A stretch of 33,215 bases of DNA, from IMG/VR virus record IMGVR_UViG_3300035180_000439, positions 1-33,215 of that record; one strand, 5' to 3'. The position numbers and the translations under genes are program-made. This document shows positions 4,718 to 22,319 of this stretch, in pieces (positions within the stretch are counted from its first letter, which is position 1; the number at the start of each line of letters is the position of its first letter). The DNA is from a virus. The notes beneath the pieces were generated by a model, which saw only the letters and a program-made list of their open reading frames with translations, ran no database searches and was not told the origin of the DNA.

Positions 4718-5287
4718 ATGAAGTTGAAGTCCAAAAAAGGCAAGACCTTCGGCCTACTTACAGTGATCAAGCGCGACAGAAAGCGAATGGATCGTGTCTA
4801 TTGGACATGTAGATGCTCCTGCGGTGTGATTAAGTCTATAAGAGGCGATAAGCTAGGGACAACTACTGTTTCTTGCGGCCATTATAATAGAGAACTTATC
4901 AGAAAAGCTCAAGAAGGTGCGGATAGTATGTTTAAAACTAATAAGCATCGTCTTTTTTATTACATTGTTGTAAAACCATTGCATGATCAAATTCGTTCCA
5001 GAGATGGCAATAAGTGCGCTCTCTGTGATACTAAAAAGAAACTTCATGTACATCACATATTAAGAAAATCTAAATATCGTTCCTATCTGTTAGAGCCCTG
5101 TAATTTAATAACACTATGCGAAGACTGTCACTTCTTTGACGCCCATTCTGGAAATACTAATACATTAAATTTAGAATTGGCTGAATCTCTTTTGAGAATT
5201 GTGTTTACAAATGAGCGTGTTTGTCCTACTCCAGAGGATCTAATCAAGATAGTAACAGATAAAGCGAAACCATTTTTTGGTGATTGA
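4718..5287 (+). CDS. HNH endonuclease with N-terminal zinc module (probable homing endonuclease)
   Basis: 189 residues. The N-terminal module at 10-55 has FGLLTVI, then WTCRCSCG (Cys31, Cys33, Cys35) and SCGH (Cys53, His55), a small cysteine-rich domain common in phage HNH proteins and likely to bind zinc and DNA. The HNH nuclease domain follows: CxxC at 100-103, the HVHH core at 110-113, Asn129, TLCEDCH at 133-138 and a further His at 143. This is a complete His-Asn-His metal site with the structural zinc knuckle. No clear Shine-Dalgarno precedes the ATG, unlike the structural genes, which fits an inserted selfish gene. It sits behind the capsid terminator and its stop overlaps the next start (TGATG). 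It may be a homing nuclease or a resident accessory nuclease; the nuclease call is firm, the homing role is inferred. Confidence 0.85.
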   Translation: MKLKSKKGKTFGLLTVIKRDRKRMDRVYWTCRCSCGVIKSIRGDKLGTTTVSCGHYNRELIRKAQEGADSMFKTNKHRLFYYIVVKPLHDQIRSRDGNKCALCDTKKKLHVHHILRKSKYRSYLLEPCNLITLCEDCHFFDAHSGNTNTLNLELAESLLRIVFTNERVCPTPEDLIKIVTDKAKPFFGD

Positions 5288-6203: not shown

Positions 6204-6383
6204 ATGAAAAAGACTAGAGACTTATTGGATATGTATAAAAGTATGAAGGATAGAAAAAATCCAGGGCATGCTACTAAGGTAGTTCCAGATAAGAAAAAGA
6301 AAGAAAAAAATAAGAAGTTAAAAGTGGTCATTCAATTTGATCATTCTTTTGATGATATTACAGGTGGAAGCGGTGGTGAGTAA
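6204..6383 (+). CDS. Small lysine-rich protein, function unknown
   Basis: 59 residues, starting at ATG 6204 behind TATAGGA. Residues 1-40 are highly basic with a KKKKEKNKK stretch at 30-38. The C-terminus is acidic and ends in the flexible GGSGGE. Its last bases overlap the start of the next gene in the string GTGAGTAA. The opposite charges at the two ends could suit nucleic acid or scaffold binding, but no family is recognised. The clear ribosome site and tight coupling to the next gene support a real gene. Confidence 0.6.
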   Translation: MKKTRDLLDMYKSMKDRKNPGHATKVVPDKKKKEKNKKLKVVIQFDHSFDDITGGSGGE

Positions 6384-7110
6384 GGATATTCAATATTTGA
6401 CTGTTCTTAGTCAATGCCGTATACAAGGAAAAACTAGAACTTATGCTGGGTATGAGTGTAAGTGTATCTGCGGCAATTTAAAAAAAGTACTAAAGCACGA
6501 TTTCAATAGAAACTTTGTTACTTCTTGTGGATGTAAGACTGGCATTTTAATTAGTAATCGGCATATTAAACTCATAGATTTAGGTACATCCCTTGGCCTG
6601 CTTACAGTTATAGATAAAACTGACATTAAATCAACAGAGGGTTATAAATATGTATGTAAATGTATTTGCGGTAATACTATTGAGGTTTATGCTAACCGAT
6701 TAAAACGAGGCGAAACAAAATCATGTGGCTGTTCAAGTATTAAGTTAAATAGTTTAAATAACGGCGGGACTGGTACACCAAGAGAGAACTTGTCTCTACA
6801 AGAAGCTTTACGCTCATGCGATGATTACATTAAATTTGTTAAGTATTGCTTAGCTAGAGCCGAAGGTAAATCAGAGCTTTCTGGTATAACTGGGGAAGTT
6901 TTGCATGTACATCATTTAGATTCCGTGTCATATCTAATTAAAACCCATGAATTAACTATGAAGACCTATTTAGGATGTACTAAATTGTTTGATCCAACTA
7001 ATGCTATAGTCATTACAGGAACTGAGCACCGCGCCTTTCATAAAGAATATGGACACATTACTACAGCAAGTGATTGGGAATCTTTTACTAACGTAATTAA
7101 ATTATATTAG
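6376..7110 (+). CDS. HNH-type endonuclease with two zinc modules
   Basis: 244 residues from the GTG at 6376, chosen because an AGGTGG ribosome site lies at 6362-6367; upstream TTG codons would read through the preceding gene. There are two tandem cysteine modules: YECKCICG with SCGC (Cys28, 30, 32, 51, 53), and LGLLTVI, YVCKCICG with SCGC (Cys94, 96, 98, 117, 119). Each matches the N-terminal module of the HNH protein at 4718. The C-terminal nuclease-like domain has HVHH at 177-180, Asn209 in DPTNAIVI, and His218 and His222 in EHRAFHKEYG. It lacks the CxxC knuckle of the other enzyme. The extra DNA-contact module suggests a longer or more specific target. Nuclease activity is inferred from the motif. 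Confidence 0.78.
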   Translation: MSKDIQYLTVLSQCRIQGKTRTYAGYECKCICGNLKKVLKHDFNRNFVTSCGCKTGILISNRHIKLIDLGTSLGLLTVIDKTDIKSTEGYKYVCKCICGNTIEVYANRLKRGETKSCGCSSIKLNSLNNGGTGTPRENLSLQEALRSCDDYIKFVKYCLARAEGKSELSGITGEVLHVHHLDSVSYLIKTHELTMKTYLGCTKLFDPTNAIVITGTEHRAFHKEYGHITTASDWESFTNVIKLY

Positions 7111-17513: not shown

Positions 17514-17525
17514 TAAGGACTATTG

Positions 17526-18734
17526 ATGTATTCCCCTTTTGCAACCTTACCAGACGTATTATTTTATACTCCAACCGATGGGTATAACTATCTAACAGAT
17601 AACCGTCCTATCTATCAGTTAGATACCAATATCCGAGCGTTAGCTGCGTCTTTGGTTGGTATTGGCTATGGTGAACATGGCTCAGTTAGTGGAGATGTAT
17701 TAACTCCAGGAAAGGGCGTTGAATTACTCCCAAATGGTTCTATCAGATATCCTGACTCATCCACAGATCCAAGCACAGCCATTTTGGGATTGGCTATAGG
17801 GGCTGCTGGAGCTGGTCTAACAAAGGTTATTTGGGGCTCTCAACTATTAGATCTTGATGTTCTAGGATTAGCTGGGGTTCTTGTCGCAAGCACTGCGGGA
17901 CAATATATTAAAGTAGATACCAATATTACTGGAAATCTTATATTAGTATCCTCTATCTCCGATTCTGATCTTATTTTAGGTAGAGTTAAAAATGCTACCT
18001 GCATTAGTATTGGTAGAGACGGACAGAATACTGTTGTTGCTGATGCAGCATCCCAAAAAAATTATTACAGTAACTTTGGTGTTACTAGAAAACGTAATTT
18101 AGATCTTTTAGCAGCAATTAATGCTACTCCACTGCAATTTACTAAAACTACTACATATCAAGATGATTTGGGCGGTTCCTATAATCCTCTTTCGATTAAG
18201 TATAATTCCTCTACCGGTTCTATTACAGCTAACGACTCTGTTCCAGGAGCTGTGTATGGATCTGACAGCAATGGTTGGGTAGTAAGAGAAACTTTCACTC
18301 AGTTCTTAAATTCTGATTTAACTGATGCGGTTAAAGTAGCTACCTTTACAAGTGCTTGGCCAGCAGTAAGTTTCCCAACATTACTTGAAGGCGGTTTACC
18401 AAACTATGAGCTTCAACCAATTGGGCCGTCAGGCATTGACTATACAGCACAGCTAGCCACCTATAAAGACTTTTATATCACTAAGTACTATCAGTATGCT
18501 AGAGCTACCTCTTTGTCGGATCCCGTATATGGTAAAGTAACAGCTACAGTAACTGTATTAGATCCAAAAGGACTACAGAAGGGTGGAGAACAGGGTAAGG
18601 TCATCATTTGTGATTTCATGACCTATTCCCTTAGTGGAAGAGAAGCTTCTAGAAATAGAATTATAGTTACAGGAACTGCTGCCGATACACTATATAGTGA
18701 TACCTCAATTTTCCCATCTATTATTAAAGCTTAA
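17526..18734 (+). CDS. Baseplate or fibre-attachment protein with DNRP motif
   Basis: 402 residues from the ATG at 17526; a TTG just before it is less likely because AAGGA at 17515 is better spaced for the ATG. The N-terminal motif FYTPTDGYNYLTDNRPIYQL at 13-32, followed by DTNIRAL, is shared with the large fibre-like protein at 19860 (FY/YY, P, D, Y, DNRP, Y, N spacing). It probably docks both proteins to the same baseplate partner. Residues 60-200 are a Gly- and Ala-rich beta region (LLPNGSIRYPDSS, then ILGLAIGAAGAG). The C-terminal half is beta and Tyr-rich. No catalytic motif is seen. Confidence 0.55.
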   Translation: MYSPFATLPDVLFYTPTDGYNYLTDNRPIYQLDTNIRALAASLVGIGYGEHGSVSGDVLTPGKGVELLPNGSIRYPDSSTDPSTAILGLAIGAAGAGLTKVIWGSQLLDLDVLGLAGVLVASTAGQYIKVDTNITGNLILVSSISDSDLILGRVKNATCISIGRDGQNTVVADAASQKNYYSNFGVTRKRNLDLLAAINATPLQFTKTTTYQDDLGGSYNPLSIKYNSSTGSITANDSVPGAVYGSDSNGWVVRETFTQFLNSDLTDAVKVATFTSAWPAVSFPTLLEGGLPNYELQPIGPSGIDYTAQLATYKDFYITKYYQYARATSLSDPVYGKVTATVTVLDPKGLQKGGEQGKVIICDFMTYSLSGREASRNRIIVTGTAADTLYSDTSIFPSIIKA

Positions 18735-18754: not shown

Positions 18755-19546
18755 ATGTCTGACGTAGTAATTCCTACATTTTCATTGGCATCGCTTCTAC
18801 CACCGTTCCACGAAATCAAGTTACCTTCGGCGGGACAGTTTGATGCGTCAGTGCCAGAAACTATTAATGTTCGTGCTTTAACTGTAAAAGAGCTAAAACA
18901 CATTACTGCTAATGGTAAATTTGATCGTAAAGTCTTTGATAAAACATTAGCATCATGTATCAAAGAGCCTATTAATTTAGCAAATCTTACAGTAGAAGAT
19001 TATAACTACATTGTATATATGATTAGACTTTACAGCAATGGTAGTAAAGTATCCACCGTTAAGATTTGCGATAACCCGGCTTGTAGAAATCAGTTTAAGT
19101 TTGATTATGATATTACTGAATCAGCAGTAGTAGATTATGCTGAAGCACCTATTGAAAAAACTAAGATTGTAACTTTGCCTAGATTTCAAGAACCGCATGG
19201 ACTTAATGTTCAGGTTGAAGTTAAGCGATTACTTCGCAAAGATATCTTAGCTATTGAGGATACCCTTAGACAGCAGACTGAACTAGCTGCCAAAGATGGA
19301 ACTAAGGGTAGTGTATTCCCGTTGTTGGAATACTTGAAGACCTACATCGTTTCCATCACTGGGTTTCCAGTCCCTATTCCAAAAGATCAGATTCTGGATA
19401 TATTTTCTACTGAAGACGCTGAAATTATTACTACTGCATTTGATAATGTTGTGTTTGGTGTAAAGGGGTCAGTAAAGACTGAATGCCCATTCTGTCATAA
19501 GCAGAATGAGTATGACATTCCATTTACTGACGTATTTTTTCTATAA
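18755..19546 (+). CDS. 26: Baseplate assembly protein, T4 gp26-like, with zinc cysteines
   Basis: 263 residues from the ATG at 18755; the upstream TTG at 18740 adds five residues and has no ribosome site. The layout resembles the gp26 family, which acts as a chaperone in hub assembly: the N-terminal SLLPPFHEIKLPSAGQFD, the LTVKELKHI block near 43-51, a first cysteine pair CDNPAC near 105-110, and a second pair CPFCHKQ near 243-249 followed by the YDIPFTDVFF end. Two CxxC-type pairs suggest one zinc site. The stop lies inside a run TTTTTTCTATAA, and a +1-frame ORF overlaps the end, so a longer frameshift product is possible. Confidence is higher for the family than for its exact role. Confidence 0.65.
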   Translation: MSDVVIPTFSLASLLPPFHEIKLPSAGQFDASVPETINVRALTVKELKHITANGKFDRKVFDKTLASCIKEPINLANLTVEDYNYIVYMIRLYSNGSKVSTVKICDNPACRNQFKFDYDITESAVVDYAEAPIEKTKIVTLPRFQEPHGLNVQVEVKRLLRKDILAIEDTLRQQTELAAKDGTKGSVFPLLEYLKTYIVSITGFPVPIPKDQILDIFSTEDAEIITTAFDNVVFGVKGSVKTECPFCHKQNEYDIPFTDVFFL

Positions 19547-19796
19547 GTTCTTGAGTGGTGATACGCCAATTAACTCAGATACTTTAGATGGATACGATGC
19601 GGTTCAGTACTACTTCTTTACTAATTTTTTAACAGCAAAGTATATATTAGATCTTCAAATATTACTTCGGTTCCAATTAAAATTTGAATATTCATATACA
19701 GATTTTATAACGCCCTTAGAAATTTTGCATTTATTCCAACGAGCTGAAGAGATCGAAGAAGAAAAGAAAAAGAAAGAAAACGAGACACGCAATTAG
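19506..19796 (+). CDS. Overlapping +1-frame ORF, possible frameshift extension of the gp26-like protein
   Basis: 96 residues counted from ATG 19506 (a second ATG is at 19512). No Shine-Dalgarno lies before either ATG, in contrast with most genes here. The frame overlaps the end of the gp26-like gene and continues after its stop with YKFLSGDTPINSDTLDGYDA, a Tyr-rich helical part and a charged Glu/Lys tail (EEIEEEKKKKENE). It could be made as a fusion through the run of six T at 19535-19540. A separate small hub assembly protein in the slot of T4 gp51 is the alternative. Long tail assembly chaperones in other phages are made by similar frameshifts. Confidence 0.55.
   Translation: MSMTFHLLTYFFYKFLSGDTPINSDTLDGYDAVQYYFFTNFLTAKYILDLQILLRFQLKFEYSYTDFITPLEILHLFQRAEEIEEEKKKKENETRN
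19532..19546 (+). other. Candidate ribosomal frameshift site (+1 or -2)
   Basis: In the gp26-like frame the codons are GTA TTT TTT CTA TAA. A +1 slip of the Phe tRNA from TTT to TTC at 19538-19541 enters the downstream frame at TAT AAG, bypassing the stop. A -2 slip on the six-T run also fits. The A-site CTA codon and the stop directly after it could cause the pause. Confidence 0.45.
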
Positions 19797-19859: not shown

Positions 19860-22319
19860 ATGTCAAAAGTTACTTTAAATACAGTCAAGTATTACGATCC
19901 AGCCGATATCTATAGTTTTGAAGTCGATAATAGACCTCTCTATGATATCTCAGGGAACGTAGATCTGATCAATACGGCAATTGCCAATCTTGGTTTCTAT
20001 CAAGAAGTGATGGCTAATCCAGAAACAGAGCCTGCTGGCGGTTTCTCGGCACTAAGCTGCGTTCTTTATGGACAAAATGGCTTATTATTTCCTATTGACA
20101 TTTCACAACCAGCCACTTCTATTGACTATGCTAAATTTCCTATCTATTTAGTAATAGAAGTAATGGGAAGTTCTAAGTATAAATGCTTAGCTTTTTCCTC
20201 AGCTTTCTCTTTACCTGGGTTATTCAATAAATTTCTTCCAGATTCTATTGGAAAAGCTATTAAAGTTGGTCCTGGTGGATCTTTAGTAGATGAAATTTAT
20301 TTTGATTTATACTATTCCGACTATAACTATCAGCAACTTACTGTTGGTAAAGTTTTAACTCCAACTACAATTGCATTTGGTGGAAACCAAGTTTCTGTAC
20401 TAGGAGACAATAGATTTTTAGCTAAGAATAGAGATGATATTTCTACTGGTACTATTACTAAAATCATTCAGAATGATGTTAATAGTACTATCTTTAAAAG
20501 TATTTTAACCAATACTTCCCAGTCTTCTTATACCTTTTCAGAATTTGTAAACCAAGTTGCAGCTCCTATTGGCGGTACTCCAGGAAGAACTCCAGTATAT
20601 TTCACAAGTCTTCCACTAACTAATACCAATGGCGTTTTTAATACTAACTTTTTAGATTCTGTTTTAAATGAAGTTCATTTTGCATCTCCATCAGTATCTG
20701 CGGCAACTCAATTAGATCAGAAATACAAAACAGCTGGTATAAATGTAGGAAGTCTTTTGGGATTTGCTCAATCCTTTTTGCTACACGCAAAACCATTATC
20801 TGCTAATTTATCAGAACTCTCTCAAGAGTTGTCTACTTCTTTACATTTTGACTCTTCTGTAAATACCGGATTAACTACACTCTTTGATTCTACTTTAGTA
20901 GATTTTGGAATTAGTGCAGCTAATTTTCCTAGCATTTTAAGAACTGCCGCAAGTTCTGCTTCTGGTGTTTCTTTAGGGCAGTTTAAATCTGAAGGTATTG
21001 GTGGATTTTTATACCATCTTACTAATAACTCTCCAGCTGATGTTGTATATAATGATGTAGACACTCAGTTTCCAATGGCTGGATTGCGAAACGGATCTAT
21101 TACAGTTCTGTCAAGTCAGTCTAGTACTACTGGAAATAGCGCATTAGCCTTACTAAGTAATGGACCAATTCTTTTAGATTCTGCTACTGGTGTATACTGT
21201 GTATCTCCCGGAAGTGAGCCATCTTCATTAACTAATAAGTATTACGTTGATAAAATGGTTACCGCTGCTGCTAATAGTGCTAATTCTAGAATTCCTTTAG
21301 TTGGAAATAACTCAGATAATGCGATTACTGGAAGTCTATATTGGGATCTTACGAGCAATGAAGATCCTTCTACTATTTTTCAGTTTAACACTCTAGTAAC
21401 AGCTACTGTTAAAACAGCATATCCAATCGAAGTTAAAACTTTAGCTACAACAGATTTCCAAGTTGTTAGAGCGTTAACTCCATCAAGCGGAGAAGATACC
21501 GATTTAACAAATAGACTCTTCGTACAGAATAAAATTGATGCGGCTATTGGATCTGCTATTGGGACTAACTTCGTATCAAGAATTGCCCCTGATACAATTG
21601 TAGCGGCAAAAACTTTCTCAGATACTGCTCAAATTATCACTAATAGTGCTACTCCATTGGTTCTTAATGCTCCAATTGGATTAGATACAGTAGAAGTAGC
21701 ATCAACTGCTGATGTGATTAAATTCTCTCCGGCTATTGGTGGAGCTAAAGTAAAATTAGAAACCTCAGCAACAGAAGTCACAGATTCTGATACCACTCTT
21801 GTAACTAAGAAATACATGCTGGATACTGTAGATGAAATTGCAAGTGGTAAGGTAGGAGAAGCTATCTATGGAATTTGGCATGTTGGCAATAGAACTACTA
21901 CTATTAGCACAGTGTCAGCATTAAGTGGTTGGGGCCATGCTACTAGAGGTATTACTCCAGACCAAGCATCCTCGAATTTCTTACTTACTTTTGATATCGT
22001 CGAAGGTGGAGCTTTACAATATAAGTTAAATACTCCCGCAGTATTTACAGTAAACGTATCTGACGCTAGAATTGCTGGAGTAGGTCAAAGCTTCCCAGGC
22101 GGAATTTACAGAACTCAAACTGTGATTGCAACCAATAGTGGCGGAATCTTCCAAATTATTGCTAGAAATATTCATCAAGATGACACAGATGGTAATAGTA
22201 TTAATTCATTAGTTGGGGCTAGTTGTTCAGCAATTGTGGTATTAAATAAAGATGATATTTTATACATCGCATCGGAACAGGCGGATACTGTTTCAGCATC
22301 TCTTGCAAGGATTAGATAA
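19860..22319 (+). CDS. Large tail-fibre-like protein with DNRP motif
   Basis: 819 residues from the ATG at 19860. An open frame extends upstream to a TTG at 19821, but this would start inside the terminator. The N-terminal motif YYDPADIYSFEVDNRPLYDI (11-30) matches the protein at 17526. Three fibre-type repeats of the form TxLTNKxxVDxxIxxA start near residues 455, 547 and 643, about 95 residues apart: SLTNKYYVDKMV, DLTNRLFVQNKI and TLVTKKYMLDTV. The C-terminal 130 residues, with AVFTVNVSDARIAGVGQ and a closing SAIVVLNKDDILYIA, look like a jelly-roll receptor-binding head. Composition is Ser, Thr, Asn and Ala rich with few Cys. The stop overlaps the next start (TAATG). Confidence 0.7.
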   Translation: MSKVTLNTVKYYDPADIYSFEVDNRPLYDISGNVDLINTAIANLGFYQEVMANPETEPAGGFSALSCVLYGQNGLLFPIDISQPATSIDYAKFPIYLVIEVMGSSKYKCLAFSSAFSLPGLFNKFLPDSIGKAIKVGPGGSLVDEIYFDLYYSDYNYQQLTVGKVLTPTTIAFGGNQVSVLGDNRFLAKNRDDISTGTITKIIQNDVNSTIFKSILTNTSQSSYTFSEFVNQVAAPIGGTPGRTPVYFTSLPLTNTNGVFNTNFLDSVLNEVHFASPSVSAATQLDQKYKTAGINVGSLLGFAQSFLLHAKPLSANLSELSQELSTSLHFDSSVNTGLTTLFDSTLVDFGISAANFPSILRTAASSASGVSLGQFKSEGIGGFLYHLTNNSPADVVYNDVDTQFPMAGLRNGSITVLSSQSSTTGNSALALLSNGPILLDSATGVYCVSPGSEPSSLTNKYYVDKMVTAAANSANSRIPLVGNNSDNAITGSLYWDLTSNEDPSTIFQFNTLVTATVKTAYPIEVKTLATTDFQVVRALTPSSGEDTDLTNRLFVQNKIDAAIGSAIGTNFVSRIAPDTIVAAKTFSDTAQIITNSATPLVLNAPIGLDTVEVASTADVIKFSPAIGGAKVKLETSATEVTDSDTTLVTKKYMLDTVDEIASGKVGEAIYGIWHVGNRTTTISTVSALSGWGHATRGITPDQASSNFLLTFDIVEGGALQYKLNTPAVFTVNVSDARIAGVGQSFPGGIYRTQTVIATNSGGIFQIIARNIHQDDTDGNSINSLVGASCSAIVVLNKDDILYIASEQADTVSASLARIR

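Follow-up and report, generated by a model that had tools for sequence, protein, structure and literature searches.

In a 33,215-nucleotide stretch of viral DNA (IMG/VR record IMGVR_UViG_3300035180_000439, here called the window), +1 programmed ribosomal frameshifting on UUU-C (19538–19541) very probably fuses a C-terminal domain of 84 residues to a short tail assembly chaperone of 263 residues, the resulting long form having 346 residues. We infer the slippage itself from sequence comparison: protein-level conservation holds in both reading frames, the slip sequence is kept, and relatives have the same layout. The gene most likely encodes the tail assembly chaperone of a bacterial virus, a T4-type phage with a contractile tail. 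The majority of ribosomes would end at the TAA (19544–19546) and make the short form (TAC-N), and in a minority the tRNA-Phe on UUU (19538–19540) would move +1 and re-pair with UUC (19539–19541). Reading would then resume at UAU AAG as VFF-YKFLSGD..., and the long form would end in the 84-residue, mostly helical C-terminal domain. On the model of gpG and gpGT of phage lambda, many short and few long copies may coat the tape measure protein, with the C-terminal domain recruiting the tail tube subunits.

Table 1. Location of the putative chaperone gene, its predicted recoding site and the probable tape measure gene in the window
Feature	Position	Strand	Basis
Probable tape measure protein gene, 756 aa	14705..16975	+	Size, one hydrophobic segment, synteny with L005 (43% identity)
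gp26-like gene, putative short form of tail assembly chaperone (TAC-N), 263 aa	18755..19546	+	PF12322, phrog_150, hhalign to SP-15 group
Overlap: +1-frame ATG 19506 and codons up to the slip site	19506..19541	+	6/6 codon changes relative to L005 non-synonymous in the +1 frame; no Shine-Dalgarno
Slip sequence and stop, TTT TTT CTA TAA; predicted +1 slip	19535..19546	+	12 nt identical in L002–L005 despite differing proteins; frame constraint switches here
Putative C-terminal domain (TAC-C), 84 aa and stop, post-shift reading YKFLSGD...	19542..19796	+	42% identity in relatives; hhalign chain via SP-15 group

Read directly, the gp26-like gene ends in the zero frame with GTA (19532–19534), TTT (19535–19537), TTT (19538–19540), CTA (19541–19543) and TAA (19544–19546). 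As the first-pass annotation of this DNA had described, a +1-frame ORF (19506–19796, 96 amino acids counted from an internal ATG) overlaps this end. The annotation put its extension past the stop at about 84 codons, and we found the +1 frame open for 82–83 codons and the −1 frame for one. In random sequence of the local composition, 83 open codons have a probability of 0.002, and in the alternative frames of the other window genes 7 of 13,716 positions were open equally long. The ORF was also said to lack a ribosome site, and indeed there is no Shine-Dalgarno-like sequence within reach of ATG 19506 or ATG 19512, the closest 4-mer being AAGG at 19463. No stimulatory RNA structure was found at the four loci folded, where downstream folds were no better than shuffles.

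The short form is readily placed in a known family. The gp26-like protein matches PF12322 (T4_baseplate, gp26) above the Pfam cut-off (E 7.4e-10), phrog_150 (baseplate hub; E 3.7e-12) and the SP-15 group (hhalign, E 3.9e-14). The ORF opens at TTG 18740, to which ATG 18755 is probably to be preferred as the start. The window holds one gp26 gene. As a query against viral contigs, gp26 alone gave no matches, the second ORF retrieved close relatives, and a plasmid search gave no match. The second ORF is harder to place: it has no family match of its own and no direct match to phrog_634 (the gp51 C-terminus), and a direct hhalign comparison with the T4-like set was not significant. The connection runs through the Bacillus phage SP-15 group, whose C-terminal ORFs match the second ORF (hhalign profile comparison, E 1.4e-5) and in turn the C-terminal family of T4-like gp51 (profile comparison, E 7e-7). 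The structure model of gp26 is good (pLDDT 88) and that of the C-terminal domain moderate (pLDDT 72); Foldseek searches with these models gave no meaningful matches. Two short annotated hypothetical proteins, SP15_046 (L019:5821-5940) and KNV73_gp038 (L022:5821-5931), correspond to tail ends of the C-terminal domain and are probably mis-annotated pieces of the long form.

The closest comparison is with four IMG/VR contigs, L002–L005, which represent about two distinct genomes. Their genes are arranged as in the window, gp26 being 68% and the C-terminal part 42% identical. The first-pass annotation had proposed that the T run and the downstream frame be compared in related phages; both TTTTTTCTATAA, identical over its 12 nucleotides in the window and all four contigs, and the +1 extension are kept. 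When the window is aligned with L005, constraint passes from one frame to the other at the T run. Upstream of the slip, the differences lie almost all at third positions of gp26, and every codon changed by them in the +1 frame is changed non-synonymously (Table 1); downstream, constraint on the +1 frame is that of an ordinary coding sequence. To judge from these substitutions, +1-frame translation probably does not include the overlap. The suggestion that a frameshift joins the two frames draws strong support from the comparison with relatives.

The first-pass annotation left the slip as either +1 or −2. If ribosomes moved back two bases on the run of six T, the product would contain VFFFYK rather than VFFYK; the tail chaperones of phage Mu are known to use a −2 shift. 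The TTTTTT of the window and L005 does permit tRNA-Phe to re-pair two bases back, and Listeria phage LIS04 has TTTTTT A, but re-pairing fails at GAA TTC TTT C, AAC TTT C and GGC TTC TTT T in homologues that use the same frame. The +1 slip is preferred because several homologues cannot re-pair two bases back; the −2 shift, which we consider improbable, was rejected on this ground. Still less likely is a gene of its own for the second ORF, with translation from ATG 19506 or by reinitiation coupled to that of gp26. An in-frame ATG is present within the overlap in the window and L002–L005, and two other loci have an ATG just past the gp26 stop, but the window ATGs lack a Shine-Dalgarno sequence, before the slip the +1 frame shows no constraint, and T4 gp51 is a true fusion of both parts. 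Moreover, the second ORF has no ATG, GTG or TTG start in 14 of 101 +1 loci, and no ATG in 56 of the 101. Independent initiation was rejected given the missing Shine-Dalgarno sequence, the unconstrained upstream frame and the start-less homologues. It is scarcely credible that transcription slips on the T run, or that an indel from sequencing or assembly has split one gene: there is a six-T homopolymer at the junction, but the split recurs across independent contigs and complete phage genomes, and many +1 relatives carry only TTCTTT or TTTCTT, with no long run.

The predicted +1 frameshift belongs to a wider pattern in the gp26 family. The survey covered 153 loci, which form 35 clusters when grouped at 50% identity, and locus counts are phylogenetically non-independent. 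In all 35 lineages a shifted-frame C-terminal ORF adjoins the gp26 stop. Scored by frame, 18 clusters contain +1 loci only, 16 contain −1 loci only and one is mostly +1 (sister loci L165 and L169 apart). On inspection, the cluster of phage IME-SM1, scored −1, proved to be +1; its gp26 frame continues beyond the slip site, which misled the scoring. The window's arrangement also occurs in Listeria phage LIS04, Streptococcus phage GXN1, Bacillus phage SP-15, Flavobacterium phage immuto and uncultured megaphages, as well as in more than 100 IMG/VR loci; in SP-15, LIS04, GXN1 and immuto it is seen in complete genomes.

The slip sites fall into two classes. The +1 sites read GAR TTY TTT CGT, TTT TTT TGG, TTT CTT TGG, TTC TTT TGG or, as in the window, TTT TTT CTA, and the −1 sites read T TTT TTN. 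The base before TTTTTN is T in 14 of 14 −1 loci versus 1 of 48 +1 loci (non-independent counts), the sole exception, L053, having been checked. The window has A TTT TTT C, and not the U UUU UUN heptamer with a −1-frame extension found in the −1 subgroup; a further in-frame TTTC occurs upstream. An in-frame TTT followed by C or T lies within the last 16 codons in 124 of 132 +1 loci. Six clustered +1 loci (L058, L061, L062, L063, L067 and L068) have no UUU-Y site; they read GAA TTA TTT AAT CCC AGT and may slip at CCC-A instead. Synonymous variation in 69 immuto-type loci collapses from the slip codon onward: the proline five codons upstream of the slip is encoded by CCT in 36, CCA in 20, CCG in 7 and CCC in 6, and the proline three codons after the first Phe by CCT in 68 of the 69.

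The first-pass annotation would have been contradicted by homologues with the two genes well separated, and the surveyed loci were examined for this. A possible own start past the gp26 stop occurs in 2 of the 153 loci, the sisters L165 and L169, and nearly all others overlap. In these two, the C-terminal ORF is out of reach of a slip at the Phe codons, and an ATG that follows the gp26 stop within a few bases (TAGAAATG, TAGAAATCATG) could start it; the C-terminal ORF is probably a separate protein there. Taken as a whole, this one chaperone family probably makes its short and long pair at the same junction in four ways: by −1 frameshift, by +1 frameshift, from two genes (T4) and with a separately started C-terminal ORF (L165, L169). 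The base before the T run would separate −1 from +1, and the direction of recoding would have changed in evolution with the product kept.

In T4 itself, gp51 is a single protein made of a gp26-like part and a C-terminal domain, and gp26 stops just after the FF at which gp51 goes on. PF12322 genes number two in T4 and one each in P-SSM2, SP-15, LIS04 and three IMG/VR contigs, the profile model having missed the Flavobacterium genome and the contigs being possibly incomplete. The abstract of Vladimirov et al. 2022 reportedly names genes 26 and 51 and describes frameshifting conserved in several T4-like groups. In 2016, T4 was still given as the exception to G-T frameshifting (PMC5009743). PMC10885494 and PMC12846349 credit the identification of the T4-like tail assembly chaperones to Vladimirov, Gautam and Davidson (2022, Virology 566:9-15); the former describes some T4-like phages with a short gene alongside a fused long one, the latter poly-T −1 signals in T4-like TAC-N genes. 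The T4-type chaperone system (gp26/gp51) is therefore already known, and the +1 class and the placement of the gene after a probable tape measure gene are variant features. The first-pass annotation was right to see a likeness to known tail assembly chaperones, but the gp26-like protein would itself be the chaperone and not an oddly placed analogue.

The window gene shares with T4-like gp26/gp51 the PF12322 family and, as predicted, would share a C-terminal domain and the Phe-Phe at which short and long forms part; with the −1 members it shares a T-rich slip site. It differs from T4, where two separate genes make the two forms, and from the other T4-like members examined (cyanophages, pelagiphages and vibriophage nt-1), which slip −1 where the window is predicted to slip +1. 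Its position after the probable tape measure gene is a further difference from T4-like gp26/gp51. Other systems resemble it in some respects. Phage lambda gpG/gpGT, likened by layout, also yields a short and a long chaperone via low-level frameshifting close to where the first gene ends (PMC5009743), but the shift is −1 and the gene precedes the tape measure. The tail chaperone of Halorubrum virus HSTV-2, an archaeal myovirus likened by shift direction, likely uses a +1 frameshift (PMC5009743). In phage Adele (Vandenendeviridae), likened by description, the slip is also T-rich and the downstream ORF is commonly annotated as a separate hypothetical protein (PMC12846349), but the slip is −1 (GTTTTT) and the gene lies before the tape measure.

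With these results, the T4-type system of chaperones would also include a +1 class, represented in phages of Bacillus, Listeria, Streptococcus and Flavobacterium and in many uncultured phages. Annotations of this class either omit the C-terminal part or, as with SP15_046, list it as a small protein of its own. Cyanophage and vibriophage gp51 lacks the first ∼200 residues (PMC3037559); a possible explanation is that gp26 would supply them. Both signs of frameshift at the same codon pair in one family also offer a clean natural comparison for recoding rules.

The gene order appears to be as the first-pass annotation had it, with the chaperone gene after the tape measure, but the tape measure was identified without homology. 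The candidate lies two genes upstream of the chaperone gene in both the window and L005, and is a probable tape measure by protein character and shared order only; against annotated tape measures it showed no homology (hhalign probability 0.1%). In SP-15, LIS04 and immuto the chaperone gene sits between the tail tube and tape measure genes, as in the lambda G/GT-type order, and in the window, given the probable tape measure, it does not.

Some neighbouring genes deserve mention. Directly after the C-terminal ORF, L005 has an extra ORF (L005:5333-6154) that by eye resembles a GIY-YIG homing endonuclease and is absent at this place in the window. Among the structural genes of the window are two ORFs with HNH-like motifs, HVHHI and HVHHL (4718–5287 and 6337–7110), judged by eye to be probably homing endonucleases. 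The two window genes flanking the chaperone gene (17523–18734 and 19860–22319) have a common N-terminal motif, DNRPxY (BLASTP E 1.5e-5), perhaps a common attachment domain.
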